From Henriciella sp. (GTDB lineage: Bacteria; Pseudomonadota; Alphaproteobacteria; Caulobacterales; Hyphomonadaceae): DNA of 44,394 bases. The notes under the pieces are model-generated. The model had not been told where the DNA came from. It saw only the letters and a list, made by a program, of their open reading frames with translations, and did not search any database. The DNA is taken from contig DUBH01000004.1 of assembly GCA_012960415.1 (NCBI GenBank), positions 1-44,394 of the forward strand, given 5' to 3'. Both the position numbers and the translations under genes were made by a program. This document shows, one piece after another, positions 4,704 through 44,394 of this stretch (within the stretch, counting starts at the first letter, position 1; every line of letters starts with the position of its first letter).

Positions 4704-6653
4704 ATGAGCCAAGACGTGTCCAACCATCCCGTTCCGGAGGCCTTTGCCAAACAGGCCAATCTCAGCCCCGAGAAATATGCCGAGATGTACAAGGCGTCCG
4801 TCGAGGACCCGGAGAGCTTCTGGGCTGAACATGGCAAGCGTATTGAGTGGATGGAGCCGTTCACGCAGGTAAAGGACGTTTCCTGGGACAAGAAGGACCT
4901 TCACGTCCGCTGGTTCGCCGACGGCACCCTGAACGTCACTGAAAGCTGTCTCGACCGGCAGCTTGAAACGCGCGGCGATAAGCCAGCAATCATCTGGGAA
5001 GGCGATGAGCCGGATGACAGCCACACGCTGACCTATCGACAGCTCTATCACGCGGTCTGCCGCTTCTCGAACGTCCTCAAGGAAATGGGCGTCAAGAAGG
5101 GCGATCGGGTCACGCTTTACATGCCCATGATCCCTGAGGCGGCAATGGCAATGCTCGCCTGCGCGCGGATTGGCGCAATTCATTCTGTTGTCTTCGGCGG
5201 TTTCTCGCCCGAGGCGCTGGCGGGCCGGATCGTGGATTGCGAATCGAAATTCATCGTCACCGCCGATGAGGGCGTGCGTGGGGGCCGCAAGGTGCCGCTC
5301 AAGGCGAACACGGACCGGGCCTGCGAGCTTGCCAAGGGCATGGTCGAGAAGGTTCTCGTGATCGAGCGCACGGGCGGCGATGTCGAGATGACGGCGGGCC
5401 GCGATGTCTGGCTTCATGAGATCGGCGCTGATGTCGCCGATACCTGTCCGCCAGAGCCTATGAACGCGGAAGATCCGCTCTTCATCCTTTATACGTCAGG
5501 CTCCACCGGCAAGCCGAAGGGCGTTCTGCACACCTGCGGCGGCTATCTCGTTTGGGCGTCGATGACGCATGAATATGTCTTCGACCTGAAAGAAGATGAC
5601 GTCTTCTGGTGCTCGGCTGATGTCGGCTGGGTCACAGGCCACACCTACATTGTCTACGGCCCACTCGCGAACGGGGCGACGTCTGTCATGTTCGAGGGTG
5701 TGCCGACCTATCCGTCGCCGTCACGCTTCTGGGAAGTCTGCGACAAGCATGGCGTGACCATCTTCTACACCGCGCCTACTGCCATCCGCGCCCTGATGCG
5801 CGAGGGCGATGGCCCGGTGAAATCGACCGACCGGTCATCGCTGCGCCTGCTCGGCACAGTCGGTGAGCCCATCAACCCCGAAGCCTGGGAATGGTATTTT
5901 AGATCGGTTGGCGACAGCCGCTGCCCGATTGTCGACACCTGGTGGCAGACAGAGACAGGCGGCACCATGATCGTGCCGCTGCCTGGGACGACGGTGATGA
6001 AGCCGGGCGCAGGCTCTCATCCGTTCTTCGGTATCGTGCCGAAGCTTGTCGATGCAGAGGGCGAAGTGCTGGAAGGCGAGGCGCAGGGAAATCTTATCAT
6101 CACCGGCAGCTGGCCGGGACAGATGCGCACTGTTTATGGCGACCATGAGCGCTTCGTGGACACGTATTTCTCAGCCTATCCGGGCAATTACTTCACCGGC
6201 GATGGCTGCCGGCGCGATGCGGATGGCTTCTACTGGATCACGGGCCGGGTCGATGACGTCATCAACGTGTCGGGCCACCGGATGGGCACCGCAGAGGTCG
6301 AAAGCGCGCTCGTCGCTCATAACGCTGTCGCTGAGGCCGCGGTGGTCGGCTATCCGCACGATATCAAGGGGCAGGGCATCTATGCCTATGTCACGACGGT
6401 GCAGGGCGTCGAAGGCGATGAGGCGCTCAAGAAAGAGCTGATCAAACATGTCCGCTCAGAGATCGGGCCGATTGCCAGCCCGGACCTTATCCAATTTGCG
6501 CCAGGCCTTCCGAAGACCCGGTCGGGCAAGATTATGCGCCGGATCCTGCGCAAGATCGCGGAAGATGATTTCGGGAACCTTGGCGACACGTCGACCCTGG
6601 CAGAGCCTGAAGTCGTCGATCAGCTGATCGATGGGCGCCAGAACAAGGGTTAG
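4704..6653 (+). CDS. acs: Acetyl-CoA synthetase
   Basis: A 649-aa AMP-forming ligase making acetyl-CoA from acetate, ATP and CoA; the length is typical for Acs. It shows the ATP-binding loop [11 protein letters not shown] near residue 263, [10 protein letters not shown] near 410, the hinge region [21 protein letters not shown] near 515, and the C-terminal [11 protein letters not shown] with the catalytic lysine near 606 that is usually controlled by acetylation. It is transcribed alone. The 199-bp upstream region contains a short GC-rich inverted repeat (4648-4670) and no other recognised element. A terminator follows the stop. Confidence 0.97.
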
Positions 6654-39937: not shown

Positions 39938-40597
39938 CTAGCCCGTATCATACCAGCCGACAAGCGCCCGCGCGACGCGTTCGGGCAGGGTGGCGGCGAT
40001 GAGGGAGATCTCTTCGCTGGCGCGCTTAAGATTGAGCGGTGTGAGGCAGAGCGGACGCGGGGCACCGGCGGCGCGAAGGCGGGCGAGCGTGAAGGCCATG
40101 CGCCGGGCCGCGCGTTCGGGGCGGCGGAGTACACCCATGATGGTGCAGTAGCGGTGTGCCAGCGGTGTTTTCGAGCGGAAGGCAGGGCGTGGCCCCGAAT
40201 GCTCGGCCGACAGGAGGGCAAACAGGTCAGACCCTGGTGGGGTGCGCTCTCTCAAACGGGGGAGGTAGGGGAAGCCCCGCTTGCGGGGGTGTTTGGGGTG
40301 TGAGGGTGCGGAGGGAGGTTGGGAGGGAGCGATTTGATTGGCCGAGGTCCCGGATAGCGGCTTTGCCGCTTCCGGGATGACGGGCATTTTCACGGACACT
40401 TCAATGGACGCCGCCATCAGGACGAGGAGGCGGCGCAGCAATGTCTCGATCAGGATGAGGCGGGCGCGCAGCTGCGCATAGAGCCGCCGGCCAAGCCCGC
40501 CGTCACCAGAGGACAGACCGGCTATGAAGTCAAGATCGGCCATCTCTTCGCGCAAGGCCCGAAGTCCCGCTGCCACAAAGCTGGATGTATCCTGCAT
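39938..40597 (-). CDS. Hypothetical protein, possibly interrupted by a palindromic insertion
   Basis: A reading frame of 219 aa. The N-terminal part (SSFVAAGLRALREEMADLD, then an Arg/Leu-rich helix ARLILIETLLRRLLVLM) and the C-terminal part (ISLIAATLPERVARALVGWY) look like real helical protein. The middle (about residues 75-115) is low-complexity Pro/Arg/Lys-rich and is encoded by hairpins and G-runs (40258-40376), suggesting an in-frame inserted repeat. No Shine-Dalgarno is visible. I do not recognise the family. Confidence 0.5.
   Translation of the reverse strand: MQDTSSFVAAGLRALREEMADLDFIAGLSSGDGGLGRRLYAQLRARLILIETLLRRLLVLMAASIEVSVKMPVIPEAAKPLSGTSANQIAPSQPPSAPSHPKHPRKRGFPYLPRLRERTPPGSDLFALLSAEHSGPRPAFRSKTPLAHRYCTIMGVLRRPERAARRMAFTLARLRAAGAPRPLCLTPLNLKRASEEISLIAATLPERVARALVGWYDTG
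40258..40376. repeat. G-rich, hairpin-containing segment inside the hypothetical gene
   Basis: The plus strand carries eight or more G-runs of three to five bases between 40258 and 40327, enough for a G-quadruplex, with a CCCCGC/GCGGGG hairpin at 40275-40288. At 40349-40376 is a longer hairpin, CCCGGA-AGCGGC against GCCGCT-TCCGGG with one extra T and a 3-nt loop. On the minus strand this reads through in frame as Pro-rich protein, as known for some palindromic elements inserted into genes. Confidence 0.5.
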
Positions 40598-40670
40598 GGC
40601 AGGGAGAATAGAGCGGGGCGCTCTACGGTGGGAAAGTCTAGCTGGTTTCGCAATTTGCGAGCAGAGAATT

Positions 40671-40781
40671 TTCGTCGGCAATTTCACCACCACCGGCCAA
40701 TGCGCCGTCACCGATAGCCCGATTGGCTGCTACCCATGGTGCAACAACGGTGTGGCGGATGGAATGATCTGCGTGGATTAG
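40671..40781 (+). pseudogene. Decayed 3' fragment of a paralog of the lipoprotein at 32.2 kb
   Basis: In frame to the TAG at 40779, the sequence TGQCAVTDSPIGCYPWCNN...CVD aligns without gaps to the last 29 residues of the lipoprotein at 32156-32554 (TGQCTMNDSIFGCY...CVD), with 15 identities including three cysteines. Everything upstream of residue FVGN is unrelated, and no start or signal peptide exists, so it is a 5'-truncated remnant. It lies exactly where the core genome gives way to the AT-richer island, so it probably marks the insertion or deletion junction. Confidence 0.7.
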
Positions 40782-40794
40782 TTAAAAAAGGGCC

Positions 40795-40824
40795 TTGATG
40801 TTCATTTTCTGTTCACCATATCCT
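40795..40824 (+). promoter_or_regulatory. Candidate promoter of the island operon
   Basis: A TTGATG (40795-40800) and TATCCT (40819-40824) pair with an 18-bp spacer lies about 30 bp before a strong AGGAGG ribosome-binding site (40844-40849). This is the only promoter-like pair between the pseudogene and the first island gene. The match is moderate. Confidence 0.4.
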
Positions 40825-40855
40825 CAGGTGACGTTTACTTAACAGGAGGTTAGTG

Positions 40856-41314
40856 GTGGGCGAAACAGGTTCGAAGGATGTTGGAGCAAATCTGAGCATT
40901 GTAGCGATTGTGCCATCGAAAAGCGATGTAACTGAAGACCAGCTCAAGGAATTACTCGACGAGGCTGGTGTAAAACCTGACGAAGTGCATTGCATCGATG
41001 AGAACGCCGAATTTGATGAAATTGATTTGGCAAACTGTACGATGATTGTGGTTTTAGATCAGCAAGTTCTTGAAGACGAAAACGTATATAACTCGGCGAG
41101 AGCCTGTGGGGTAGCTGGGGCAAAAGTCATAGTTCTGATCGGTGACGGCTTTGATTATCAAGACCTACATCCTTTGGCCAAGAGCTATGGCACACAATGT
41201 GGTTGGTCGGCCAAGGCTGTTTCTGACGCAATCATCGCGCCATCGCTAGCGGAGCCTGCCGGCCAGGATGGGAGCCAGTTGCAGCGCCCTAAGCCTAGGC
41301 AGGTGGATTGTTAG
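40856..41314 (+). CDS. Unrecognised Rossmann-like protein of the modification island
   Basis: A 152-aa protein starting at the GTG at 40856, which is 6 bp after a perfect AGGAGG; the GTG at 40853 is too close. The predicted layout alternates strands and helices: strand LSIVAIVP, helix TEDQLKELLDEAG, strand EVHCID, strand CTMIVVLD, helix VYNSARACGVAG, strand AKVIVLIG, then HPLAKSYG and a last helix. This is a small Rossmann-like fold, loosely like TIR/deoxyribosyltransferase-type nucleotide-binding domains, but I see no decisive catalytic motif. Base composition is much more AT-rich than the core genes. It leads a tight operon (18 bp to the next gene). Confidence 0.75.
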   Translation: MGETGSKDVGANLSIVAIVPSKSDVTEDQLKELLDEAGVKPDEVHCIDENAEFDEIDLANCTMIVVLDQQVLEDENVYNSARACGVAGAKVIVLIGDGFDYQDLHPLAKSYGTQCGWSAKAVSDAIIAPSLAEPAGQDGSQLQRPKPRQVDC

Positions 41315-41332
41315 AGGTAGAGGTGCCCATAA

Positions 41333-41953
41333 GTGAGAACTTACGCATATCGTCTCAATCATGATCTAGGTTTTGCGCCCAATCCTTTTTTTGGTTGGTG
41401 CACTTTAGCTTGTTGCATGCCAAGAATCCGAGAGCGCGCAGTTGATGGTGACCTAATTGTCGGAATGGCTGGCTCAGGAAAACAGGGGCTGAAGCGAATA
41501 TTCCCACAGTTAATCTACTGGATGCGAGTTACTGAAAGCCTTAGCTTTGACCAGTATTGGAATGATGCAAGATTTATACGCAAGCGTCCAAGTATGAGCG
41601 CTCCGACTTTCATGAATGTAGGGGACAATACCTACCGAAAATCGGAAGATGGAACTTGGAGATTTGAAAGTTCAATGCATTACGTTCCCGGCTCTCGGCA
41701 GCGCCATGATGGGCATGTGAAAATCGATACTAGTGTAGATAGAGTGCTTTTAAGTACAGAATTCACTTATTGGGGAGGTTCTGGTCCAAAAGTTCCGGAT
41801 TCATTGCTTGAAATATTTCCTGTTACACGTGGATATAAAGTTAGCCACGACACTAAGACGCTCGCCGATTTCCACGGTCTTATTGGAGTAGATAATGCTC
41901 GTGGAGTAGTGGGCGATCCCGCTGATTGGAATAACCGGAAGTATTTCAACTGA
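41333..41953 (+). CDS. Nmad2 (nucleotide modification associated domain 2) protein
   Basis: A 206-aa protein starting with GTG after GAGGTAGAGG. The N-terminal third matches my memory of Nmad2: YRLNHDLGFAPNPFFGWCTL, ACCMPRIR, GDLIVGMAGS and MRVTESLSFDQYWNDARF, followed by IRKRPS. Later come VGDNTYRK and VLLSTEFTYWGGSGP. Nmad domains were named because they occur with DNA base hypermodification enzymes; their biochemical role is not established. Neighbours are a MazG-like protein 10 bp downstream and a convergent hypermodification-type protein, which supports the call. Confidence 0.82.
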   Translation: MRTYAYRLNHDLGFAPNPFFGWCTLACCMPRIRERAVDGDLIVGMAGSGKQGLKRIFPQLIYWMRVTESLSFDQYWNDARFIRKRPSMSAPTFMNVGDNTYRKSEDGTWRFESSMHYVPGSRQRHDGHVKIDTSVDRVLLSTEFTYWGGSGPKVPDSLLEIFPVTRGYKVSHDTKTLADFHGLIGVDNARGVVGDPADWNNRKYFN

Positions 41954-41963
41954 GGGACGCATC

Positions 41964-43376
41964 ATGAAAACGTTGGAACTATATGAATTCGTGAATGAAA
42001 CTGATCTCTCGTTGGATGACGGTGTAGAGCAGCGAAAACGAATAGCAATCTTGGGCCTTGTTTCTGAGATAGGTTCGATACTTGCTGCGTTGAAAAAGGA
42101 CCTACTGGTTGCCAACAATAAGGAAAATACAAGAGAGCAATCGTTAGTGAGAGGCGAGCTGATCGAAGAGATTGGCGACACCATTTGGTATGCGGTGATG
42201 TTAGCGCAATGCATACTTGAAGATGAGCAGGCGGATGCCGCCCGCGACATTTTCAAGTCAGGCATCAGTCGGTTGAAACAACATCTAACTGGAAAGAGCC
42301 GGAATAACCGTCGAACCCAAGCGCAGTTGGAACCTGAAAAAATATCTGCATTTGTTAAAGAGGCGGATATCTTTCTGGAATCCGAAAATGCTTCAATCGA
42401 TGAATTTCAAATTTTGGCTTATAAGACCCGCAGAACCGACGATCGACAACTAAAAGACATATGCTCGGCAGTTCTACAACAGTTGGCGGCCCAACTTAGT
42501 CGGGATCTGCTTCCAGATAGCGAACTGATTTTAAATCACGAAGTTCGACCTAAGGATTCTGTAAAGGCATTAGGCGAAATGATCTGGCATTTAGCTGCGC
42601 TTGCCAGTCTTTTTAAATTTAAGCTCTCCGACAGCATTGCTGCAGTTAAAGAGAAATCTGAGTTTAGGAATCCAAGCGGTAGGCCTGGACCGGATCACTC
42701 AACAAAGGGTGATGCTGAAGAGCAATTTCCCAAAAAGTTTCAAGTGCATTTCGTATCGCTAAATGACAAAACAGCGGACATGTACTGGGTTGAGCACGAT
42801 CGATGCATAAAGAAACTCGGCGATCCCCTTACGGACAACAATTATGCTGATGACGGTTATAGGTTCCACGATGTGATGCACATTGCTTTTGCTGCCTATC
42901 TTGGTTGGTCTCCGAACTTGAGGTCCTTTATGGGGCTCAAACGAAAGTCTGTTGCAGAGATAGACAATGTAGAAGACGGAGGTCGCGCGAAGATTCTTGA
43001 AGAGGCGATAATCCTCGAAATCCACGAGACTGCCAAAGCCAAAAGAAAGCACCTTCAGTTTGCCGGATGCGCAGATACTGTTTCGCCATTCGGATATGAT
43101 AATGCACTGAATTTCGGATTTCTTCGACGATTGCGTGCGATGACGTTTGGCCACGAGGTTTACGAAAACCCCAAGCAAGATTGGGAGGCGGCTATCAAGA
43201 ACGGCTATCAGTGCTACGAGCAGCTACGCGAGCATATGGGAGGAATAATATCGGTAGATACTGACGAAAAAAGTATAAGTTTCACAGCTCTCGATGAAAC
43301 AAATCGGATTGACTATTCAACGCCTTCGATTCCGCCCAAGCGGCGTCTTTGCGAGGTTTGCAGAACGGCACTTTGA
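41964..43376 (+). CDS. MazG-like nucleotide pyrophosphohydrolase with C-terminal MazG_C-type domain
   Basis: A 470-aa protein. The first all-alpha NTP-PPase unit (about 20-90) has VSEIGSILA and the metal-binding GELIEEIGDTIWYAVMLA. A second, more degenerate MazG-like unit (about 125-235) contains KALGEMIWHLAALASLFKF. The C-terminal ~210 residues (from about FPKKFQVHF) have YRFHDVMHIAFAAYLGWSP and EEAIILEIHETA and fit the 'MazG C-terminal domain' of hypermodification operons. Phage MazG-like enzymes in such operons remove unwanted dNTPs. The gene overlaps the convergent gene by 95 nt. Codon use is AT-rich. Confidence 0.8.
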   Translation: MKTLELYEFVNETDLSLDDGVEQRKRIAILGLVSEIGSILAALKKDLLVANNKENTREQSLVRGELIEEIGDTIWYAVMLAQCILEDEQADAARDIFKSGISRLKQHLTGKSRNNRRTQAQLEPEKISAFVKEADIFLESENASIDEFQILAYKTRRTDDRQLKDICSAVLQQLAAQLSRDLLPDSELILNHEVRPKDSVKALGEMIWHLAALASLFKFKLSDSIAAVKEKSEFRNPSGRPGPDHSTKGDAEEQFPKKFQVHFVSLNDKTADMYWVEHDRCIKKLGDPLTDNNYADDGYRFHDVMHIAFAAYLGWSPNLRSFMGLKRKSVAEIDNVEDGGRAKILEEAIILEIHETAKAKRKHLQFAGCADTVSPFGYDNALNFGFLRRLRAMTFGHEVYENPKQDWEAAIKNGYQCYEQLREHMGGIISVDTDEKSISFTALDETNRIDYSTPSIPPKRRLCEVCRTAL

Positions 43377-44394
43377 CGCCCCAATCTTCCGGGTAAATCG
43401 GACAGTACATTTCCTTCGCGCTCCGCCGATAAGATTGTTTGATACGCGTCCTACCAGACACGCCTTTGATTTCTGGAAACGCCACACGAGTATACTTAGA
43501 AATTTCGCAGAACAGGTTCTGGCAATCAATCAGCTGGAGTGGGCGCCCCCATAAATCTTTGAAATCCAGACTAAACTGTTCAAAGTAGCGTTCTTGATTG
43601 TTAGCCATGTACGCGATGATTTGTTCAGCGCTGACATCGCGCGTGTTGACAAAACACTTAGAAATTCCGTCCAGCGCACCAGGACCGGCGACGACGAATT
43701 CCATTTCGCTGAAGTGGGTCAGACTGCTGTAGTTAATATCGGTGACGAACTGGAATGCCAAAAATGGTCCCAAAGAAGGCGCTGACAACAAAAGTTCGTA
43801 CGCTTCAGACATCCGACGGGCGCGACTTAGACGAGCTGGAAATTGCTCATCGAGCATCCAGTTGATTAAGGCCAAGTGACTGGAATGTTTGCGCTTGTGC
43901 CCGAAAAAGGAGCCGGCGGAAGCCATTATGTAAGCAGCAGAATAATTGCGATATCCTGCGTCCTGTCTGGATGACAAGAAAGCGTTCGCCTCATCAAAGT
44001 TAAGAGCCTCCGCAGTCAGTTCCCCGAATTCGTTCTCTAGAGCCTCCCAAGTTTCCACCTTATTGAAAATCTTGAATAGCAGAGTTCTGAAGAACAGATC
44101 TCGTGGCTCCCATGCATCCGCTTGCGGACCGATAACTTGGCTAATCAAATATTGACTGACGCGGTCAGATGCGCGGTACGCGTTTGTAAACCGATAGCTC
44201 CGAAGGATTTCATCTTCAGGATAATTTGTTGCCGGTCTCTCGCCCGAAACCCTCTCATGGAAAATGTTTTGCCGCGCAAATGCAAAATACCAATAGGCGT
44301 CAAAAGCAGGCGTGGTCTCTAGTTGAGCGCCGTGAATATTTATTGTCTTCGGTTGATGCGATGCGAGTATAATGGACGCAGGGGTCTCGGTGTT
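43282..44394 (-). CDS. 5-hmdU DNA kinase helical-domain protein ('putative DNA base hypermodification protein'), 5'-partial
   Basis: The frame is open from the stop at 43282 to the window edge, giving at least 370 residues; the true start lies beyond. The family pattern is very clear: AFDAYWYFAFARQNIF, YRFTNAYRASDRVSQYLI, RTLLFKIFNKVETWEALE, FLAFQFVTDINYS, FSEMEFVVAGPGALDGISK, WGRPLQLIDCQNLFCEIS, KYTRVAFPEIKGVSGRTRIK. The TTG at 44148 is inside the conserved segment DRVSQYLIS and cannot be the start. The domain is the helical part of phage 5-hydroxymethyl-dU DNA kinases; no P-loop kinase domain is visible in the part shown. Confidence 0.85.
   Translation of the reverse strand, partial: NTETPASIILASHQPKTINIHGAQLETTPAFDAYWYFAFARQNIFHERVSGERPATNYPEDEILRSYRFTNAYRASDRVSQYLISQVIGPQADAWEPRDLFFRTLLFKIFNKVETWEALENEFGELTAEALNFDEANAFLSSRQDAGYRNYSAAYIMASAGSFFGHKRKHSSHLALINWMLDEQFPARLSRARRMSEAYELLLSAPSLGPFLAFQFVTDINYSSLTHFSEMEFVVAGPGALDGISKCFVNTRDVSAEQIIAYMANNQERYFEQFSLDFKDLWGRPLQLIDCQNLFCEISKYTRVAFPEIKGVSGRTRIKQSYRRSAKEMYCPIYPEDWGVKVPFCKPRKDAAWAESKALNSQSDLFHREL

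Follow-up and report, generated by a model that had tools for sequence, protein, structure and literature searches.

A four-gene cassette with TIR-like, Nmad2, MazG and HMUDK_hel proteins in a Henriciella defence hotspot: a candidate immunity system against modified phage bases

Closest described systems

Brig3-BapA and Brig1/Brig2 pair a base-flipping enzyme with an ASCH partner against modified phage bases; according to the authors, Brig1 and Brig3 descend from uracil DNA glycosylases (PMC13160076). The DefensePredictor study reports validated Escherichia coli units that contain a thymidylate synthase and a 5-hydroxymethyluracil kinase, and predicts MazG, MazG-C and a nucleotide-modification domain to be defensive (PMC13092281). 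PD-Lambda-2 includes an Xre-peptidase protein, PD-Lambda-2_B (PMC9519451). Here, we describe a cassette of four genes at the end of a 44,394-nt stretch of Henriciella sp. (contig DUBH01000004.1, forward strand), called the window below. It encodes gene 1 (g1), an Nmad2 protein, a MazG/MazG_C protein and an HMUDK_hel protein. The available portion of PMC9503650 describes SLOG and MazG, and this cassette does not appear there. We found no paper naming the order g1/TIR-Nmad2-MazG_C-HMUDK_hel or the C-terminal Cys of the first protein; Burroughs et al. 2015, which was not covered, may predict the order. No paper on the subject was found for Nmad2, for a C-terminal cysteine in Thoeris or for the combination of acyl carrier protein (ACP), thymidylate synthase and TIR.

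The cassette

The cassette contains four open reading frames (ORFs) in a block of about 3.9 kb, where the sequence-only reading of this DNA had placed them. Positions prefixed L002 are in the locus numbering of the carrier's own contig. The features are as follows.

40853..41314, plus strand: g1, 153 aa with Cys as the last residue; apparently a degenerate ThsB-type TIR with Ser at the presumed catalytic Glu column.
41333..41953, plus strand: Nmad2 protein, 206 aa; Pfam PF18753, E = 2.2e-52; PUA-like (YTH/EVE/ASCH/McrB-N) type model.
41964..43376, plus strand: MazG and MazG_C protein, 470 aa; Pfam MazG, E = 4.2e-5, and MazG_C, E = 4e-53; MazG Glu/Asp residues kept.
43282..44394, minus strand: HMUDK_hel protein, 370 aa up to the window end, where the frame is open; Pfam E = 6.9e-96; HhH-GPD-like model without a P-loop.
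40782..44394, no strand: variable cargo segment as bounded against the relative G387; its right border lies past the window, at contig position 44,681.
39938..40711, minus strand: left hotspot flank, outside the cassette; 257-aa ORF with no Pfam match and with homologues in five congeners, where other cargo lies alongside (L030 to L034).

The Pfam searches confirmed the three domains that had been named from the letters alone (Nmad2, MazG_C and HMUDK_hel). The block also has the foreign, AT-richer composition noted there. By eye, the translations from 34,431 on contain no capsid, tail or integrase gene. Its guanine-plus-cytosine (GC) content is 47%, between 64% in the left flank and 67% in the right. 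The HMUDK_hel and MazG genes lie tail to tail and overlap by 95 bases.

Position in a defence hotspot

The left flank was searched against 61 genomes of the family. It was matched over most of the query in the carrier's own genome and in five congeners, and the amidase is on the opposite side in all five. One congener carries Gabija between these flanks (GajA, E = 1.8e-209; GajB, 1.4e-125). Another carries Hachiman (HamA, 2.2e-80; HamB, 8.5e-188). Two carry an MmeI-like type IIG restriction enzyme, and both have a longer stretch with core-like GC content (60 to 62%) and further genes inside. The cargo of the fifth is a 1,468-aa protein (L031:7287-11693) with no PADLOC or Pfam family match at an E value of ≤0.001. 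It has a GKT-type P-loop by eye and is a further defence candidate in its own right.

Known defence systems thus lie between the same flanks in four of five relatives, the pattern of defence-island cargo. The cassette occupies the place of known anti-phage systems. This position is the strongest evidence for its function. The conflict system that had been offered from the sequence as an alternative to hypermodification is upheld.

Homology to G387 stops on the left at L002:782 and restarts on the right at L002:4683. Against the other four relatives, the borders are at L002:638-651 and 4930-4937. The contig extends 2.5 kb beyond the window, with a 10-N gap at L002:4396-4405. Beyond the gap are remains of flanking sequence and ORFs, the last being the conserved amidase gene. 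By eye, L002:4646-4834 (minus strand), right of the island, holds what looks like remains of the end of an enoyl-CoA hydratase gene, common to G387 from L002:4683. Further genes (methylase, nuclease or kinase) had been suggested as possible past the right end. None was seen by eye in the assembled right-hand ORFs, which were not library-scanned and where the gap may hide the HMUDK_hel start or more; the assembled sequence holds no long operon. A REP-like palindrome at 40351-40382, within the left flanking ORF, occurs once in the window, and many genomes of the genus and of the family hold short near-copies of it.

Proposed role

With moderate confidence, we read the cassette as an accessory anti-phage defence against modified pyrimidine (thymine-like) bases of phage DNA and their nucleotides. 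The domains, the place in the hotspot, the recurrence of the gene association, the fusions, the Glu loss and the Cys conservation are observed; from them we infer a defence against phage, its substrate and a role for each protein, catalytic steps included. Nmad2, whose model resembles the fold of modified-base readers, would recognize the altered base. HMUDK_hel, modelled with an HhH-GPD-like fold of the base-flipping kind, would bind or chemically alter it. MazG/MazG_C would hydrolyze the matching (modified) deoxynucleoside triphosphate, so that phage replication would be starved. g1, with the presumed NADase Glu lost and the C-terminal Cys kept, may be a nonenzymatic partner of Nmad2. An orphan "DNA hypermodification" domain set would thereby move into bacterial immunity, with a testable role for each part.

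HMUDK_hel

No kinase domain (Pfam) or P-loop motif was found in the four cassette proteins. The HMUDK_hel model resembles HhH-GPD glycosylases, and its best match is a phage DNA-base glycinyltransferase at 10% identity. A hidden Markov model (HMM) search of the PDB gave only weak, unrelated-looking matches (annexin and aquaporin). PF18723 appears to mislead annotation, since records say "nucleotide kinase domain-containing" and the window protein has no kinase motif and a DNA-glycosylase-type model. Its frame runs into the 10-N gap, and no start is seen within the window.

DNA-base hypermodification had been proposed from the sequence. A self-marking cassette would do to the cell's own DNA what phages do to theirs and install a hypermodified thymine there. 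We examined three annotated phage HMUDK_hel loci. Two contain a P-loop kinase or NTPase and thymidylate synthase, and the third contains thymidylate synthase and glycosyltransferases. The first two, as hypermodification loci, favor self-marking, as does the glycinyltransferase fold match. The four cassette genes include neither a kinase nor a thymidylate synthase, and inspection by eye of the ORFs up to the contig end showed no thymidylate synthase. The carrier's own genome gave no match to a partner kinase, in a search whose empty answers carry no weight, and only a 68-residue match to a partner thymidylate synthase (E = 6.5e-4). The hotspot context also speaks against self-marking, which we consider quite unlikely; the hypermodification proposal is not supported.

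By tblastn, HMUDK_hel is matched in 469 phage records, and it also matches the PHROG family phrog_2396 (1e-51). The MazG_C region matches phrog_229 (2.7e-16). These matches would fit a phage or prophage remnant with genes once used for the phage's own modification. However, the phage HMUDK_hel matches listed are 22 to 37% identical, versus 46 to 51% for the best 13 plasmid matches and up to 62% for bacterial genomes. The window Nmad2 and MazG/MazG_C proteins have no tblastn match at an E value of ≤1e-5 in 50,697 phage records. A pattern scan with the HMUDK_hel alignment retrieved at least 561 relatives from the genome collection and 18 from 2.9 million viral contigs. A phage remnant is the least credible of the explanations, with very little probability. 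The description of these domains as mostly of phages holds in part for HMUDK_hel and fails for Nmad2 and MazG/MazG_C by tblastn, the phrog_229 match notwithstanding.

MazG/MazG_C

Pfam finds a single MazG domain at residues 32 to 90. The tandem MazG read from the sequence is weakly supported, by a match of the profile of 21 relatives to PDB YpjD at profile positions 188 to 235 (E = 0.0089). Over the 21 rows, E35 and D72 are invariant and E68 and E69 are nearly so. We take these four residues to be the MazG metal ligands. The window protein has the conserved Glu/Asp set of MazG nucleoside triphosphate pyrophosphohydrolases, and this activity is predicted for it. Its PDB relatives are dCTP pyrophosphatase and MazG-type proteins (E = 0.003 to 0.3). 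As a query, the single MazG/MazG_C sequence retrieved no related loci from genomes or viral contigs; the HMUDK_hel alignment succeeded.

Nmad2

The AF2 model of Nmad2 (pLDDT, 87.5; pTM, 0.87) matches YTH/EVE/ASCH/McrB-N (PUA-like) folds at moderate scores. No match was found in the HMM search of the PDB. Residues C23, C28 and H116 are invariant.

Gene 1 and its C-terminal cysteine

g1 alone had nothing above the Pfam cutoff, and searches of PHROGs, NCBIfam and PADLOC did not usefully name either it or Nmad2. A profile of five g1 proteins aligned with 16 TIR proteins by hhalign (probability, 96.8%; E = 2.4e-10; single comparison). A second, separate g1-type profile aligned with a TIR profile (98.5%; E = 3.4e-15; single comparison). 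The first genes of related cassettes often encode ThsB-type TIR proteins, with PF08937 matched at an E value of ≤0.01 in 18 of 25 aligned rows. The match run gives the number 18 alone; 18 rows are TIR-type by sequence, and the window row has no match.

The Glu of the WVN.E motif is presumably the catalytic Glu of TIR. It is kept in all 18 TIR rows. It is missing from six of the seven g1-type rows (Ser, Ala in three, Asp and Leu), which come from several genera, and L071 has it; the alignment is of low identity, also where it places Ser of the window g1 in this column. The protein first described as Rossmann-like thus appears, by these alignments, to derive from a ThsB-type TIR and to lack the Glu presumed to be catalytic.

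Could the cassette be decaying, without present function? The Glu is lost from g1, and the HMUDK_hel frame enters the gap. All four frames are open, however, the loss is shared by six of the seven g1-type rows with Cys retained, and the MazG Glu/Asp residues are kept. We hold decay to be very unlikely.

In the alignment of 25 rows (A5), three residues are invariant: a Trp, a Gly and a C-terminal or nearly C-terminal Cys (Cys153 in the window g1); the invariance of Trp and Gly holds for A5 only. A Cys lies within the last 10 residues of 36/36 Nmad2-adjacent TIR-type proteins versus 3/30 other TIRs (Fisher P = 2e-15) and within the last three of 32/36 versus 2/30 (P = 5e-12), with relatedness ignored in both tests. 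In the other four (L067, L069, L070 and L074), it is 9 to 10 residues from the end. The 36 comprise the 25 of A5, four added by eye (L069, L070, L074 and L122) and L035 to L041. ORFs open at the locus end were dropped (L193 and L202), and duplicates were counted once (L182, L185 and L189). The count covers loci matching the local TIR profile and omits L042 to L047, divergent or partial Nmad2 loci with no TIR-type match. A second, different TIR gene without a C-terminal Cys lies directly upstream of HMUDK_hel in L112, L116, L119 and L121. The C-terminal Cys is a specific invariant of Nmad2-linked TIR-type proteins, retained even where the presumed NADase residue is gone.

Related cassettes

Contexts were counted in the best 80 of the at least 561 genome loci, and the counts are query-dependent lower bounds in which a gene is present in the fetched locus, not always in the same operon. 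Related cassettes were found across phyla. A TIR or g1 gene with Nmad2 is in 24/80 loci by automatic search and in 28/80 after inspection of L069, L070, L074 and L122. A MazG or MazG_C gene is in 51 loci, or 54 with three fusions included. An ACP gene is in 32 loci, each of which also has thymidylate synthase and an ImmA/IrrE peptidase; in 20 of them, holo-ACP synthase is present as well. The FDS motif is present in 30 of 33 ACPs by eye. Three loci contain both modules (L072, L094 and L120). One group from many phyla (L078, L079, L080, L097, L098 and others) has the order ACP, HTH, ImmA/IrrE, thymidylate synthase, HMUDK_hel, MazG and AcpS. Two congeners carry near-identical loci (L051 and L052) with HTH, ImmA/IrrE, C1-peptidase-like, 276-aa, MazG_C and HMUDK_hel genes. 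By eye, ParB- and terminase-like genes lie nearby, and L051 also has a recombinase-like gene.

In a tree of 75 HMUDK_hel proteins, four context types need 14 changes (minimum, 3; shuffled mean, 29). Labels were assigned by hand, 8 of the 75 rows are unlabelled, and loci with both modules were labelled as ACP type. The smallest well-supported group with the window contains g1 (3), C1-peptidase (1) and ACP (1) types. These changes point to repeated swapping of TIR/Nmad2 and ACP/thymidylate-synthase partners round a common HMUDK_hel core. The MazG_C-type and HMUDK_hel genes are convergent in 14 of the 23 loci that hold both and not in nine. In 13 convergent loci measured (L041 included), the spacing ranges between a 61-base overlap and a 22-base gap.

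Among 385 genomes of the class, the carrier's own included, 13 encode Nmad2, 13 encode MazG_C and 9 encode both (hypergeometric P = 1e-12). Of the 8 genomes with HMUDK_hel, 6 also encode MazG_C (P = 1e-8) and 4 also encode Nmad2 (P = 5e-5). These P values ignore relatedness. Nmad2 and MazG_C are at most 2 kb apart on one contig in 8 of the 9 genomes and on different contigs in G274.

Known defence proteins also occur in the flanks of related cassettes, where the scan took in 142 of 169 ORFs and 23 of 26 loci. The 27 ORFs left out of this set (A10) include all from L116, L119 and L121. No known defence protein was found among 26 scanned ORFs from the left part of the window (set A11; 26 of 36 listed ORFs, with overlapping ones dropped). 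SLOG cluster2 is matched by 7 of the 142 flank proteins. The loci L082, L083, L108, L135, L113, L087, L099, L112, L116, L121, L038, L039 and L072 carry both genes of a conserved pair (about 390 and 320 aa), a fusion of the two or just one of them. One member probably belongs to the SLOG cluster2 family.

These genes bear on a Thoeris-like alternative, in which a TIR-type protein would sense a nucleotide signal made or freed by infection, and MazG/MazG_C would remove nucleotides and stop the cell. g1 resembles ThsB-type TIR, relatives of two L082 genes, as a pair or fused into one gene, are frequent at TIR-Nmad2 loci elsewhere, and the SLOG matches fit. Against it, Ser stands in g1 where the catalytic Glu is presumed to be, ThsB_TIR has no match anywhere in the carrier's genome, and the four cassette proteins have no SLOG match. 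We regard this alternative as unlikely.

A bolder variant of modified-base defence is thiol tagging, in which HMUDK_hel would couple a protein thiol to an activated thymine, either in phage DNA or in its nucleotides. The thiol would be the C-terminal Cys of g1 or TIR and, in sister systems, the phosphopantetheine arm of a dedicated ACP. Phage DNA would become protein-tagged and blocked. The idea arises because sister systems have an ACP (often with its synthase) where the cassette has a Cys-tailed TIR or g1 and because the enzyme that best matches the HMUDK_hel fold attaches a nucleophile to an activated base. It is weakened because the Cys accompanies Nmad2 in four genomes that have TIR-Nmad2-MazG_C and no HMUDK_hel match (G260, G077, G227 and G339), of which two have less clean assemblies (83% complete and 10% contaminated). 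The Cys is more simply read as serving Nmad2, at a docking pocket or metal site there (invariant C23, C28 and H116), than as serving HMUDK_hel. Thiol tagging is a speculative proposal of low probability.

Comparison with known systems

The HMUDK_hel relatives in the Yuavirus phages SN1 (Sphaerotilus) and vB_Pa-PAC9 (Pseudomonas) likewise lie beside nucleotide-modification genes. They are annotated as aGPT-Pplase1 in SN1 and as 5-hmdU DNA kinase helical domain in PAC9. These loci encode a P-loop kinase or NTPase and thymidylate synthase, with radical SAM and PLP genes also in SN1. The cassette lacks these and, unlike the Yuavirus hypermodification loci, has g1, Nmad2 and MazG_C. The glycinyltransferase matched by the HMUDK_hel model is PUGT, the 5-phosphomethyl-dU glycinyltransferase gp46 of phage PaMx11 (PDB 8z2m and 8z2n). 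It is the best VIA match and is absent from the matches of the PDB HMM search.

The candidates from DefensePredictor share the domain vocabulary of the cassette, a likeness drawn from the available text and not from gene order (PMC13092281). Homologues of the PD-Lambda-2_B Xre-peptidase are present in eight related loci and as a fragment in L119, and they adjoin g1 in several relatives; none is among the four genes of the window. The likeness to Thoeris lies in the first genes, with 18 of 25 relatives matching ThsB_TIR and the TIR of L081 matching PADLOC ThsB1 (E = 2.7e-55). g1 differs in having neither a PF08937 match nor, in the low-identity alignment, the presumed catalytic Glu. No ThsA/SLOG gene is among the four cassette genes, and the right-hand ORFs were viewed by eye only.

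The likeness to the Brig systems is one of logic. No TIR or MazG is described for them in the available part of PMC13160076, and HMUDK_hel models as HhH-GPD-like. Brig3/BapA is the nearest worked example of the modified-base immunity that we propose for the cassette.

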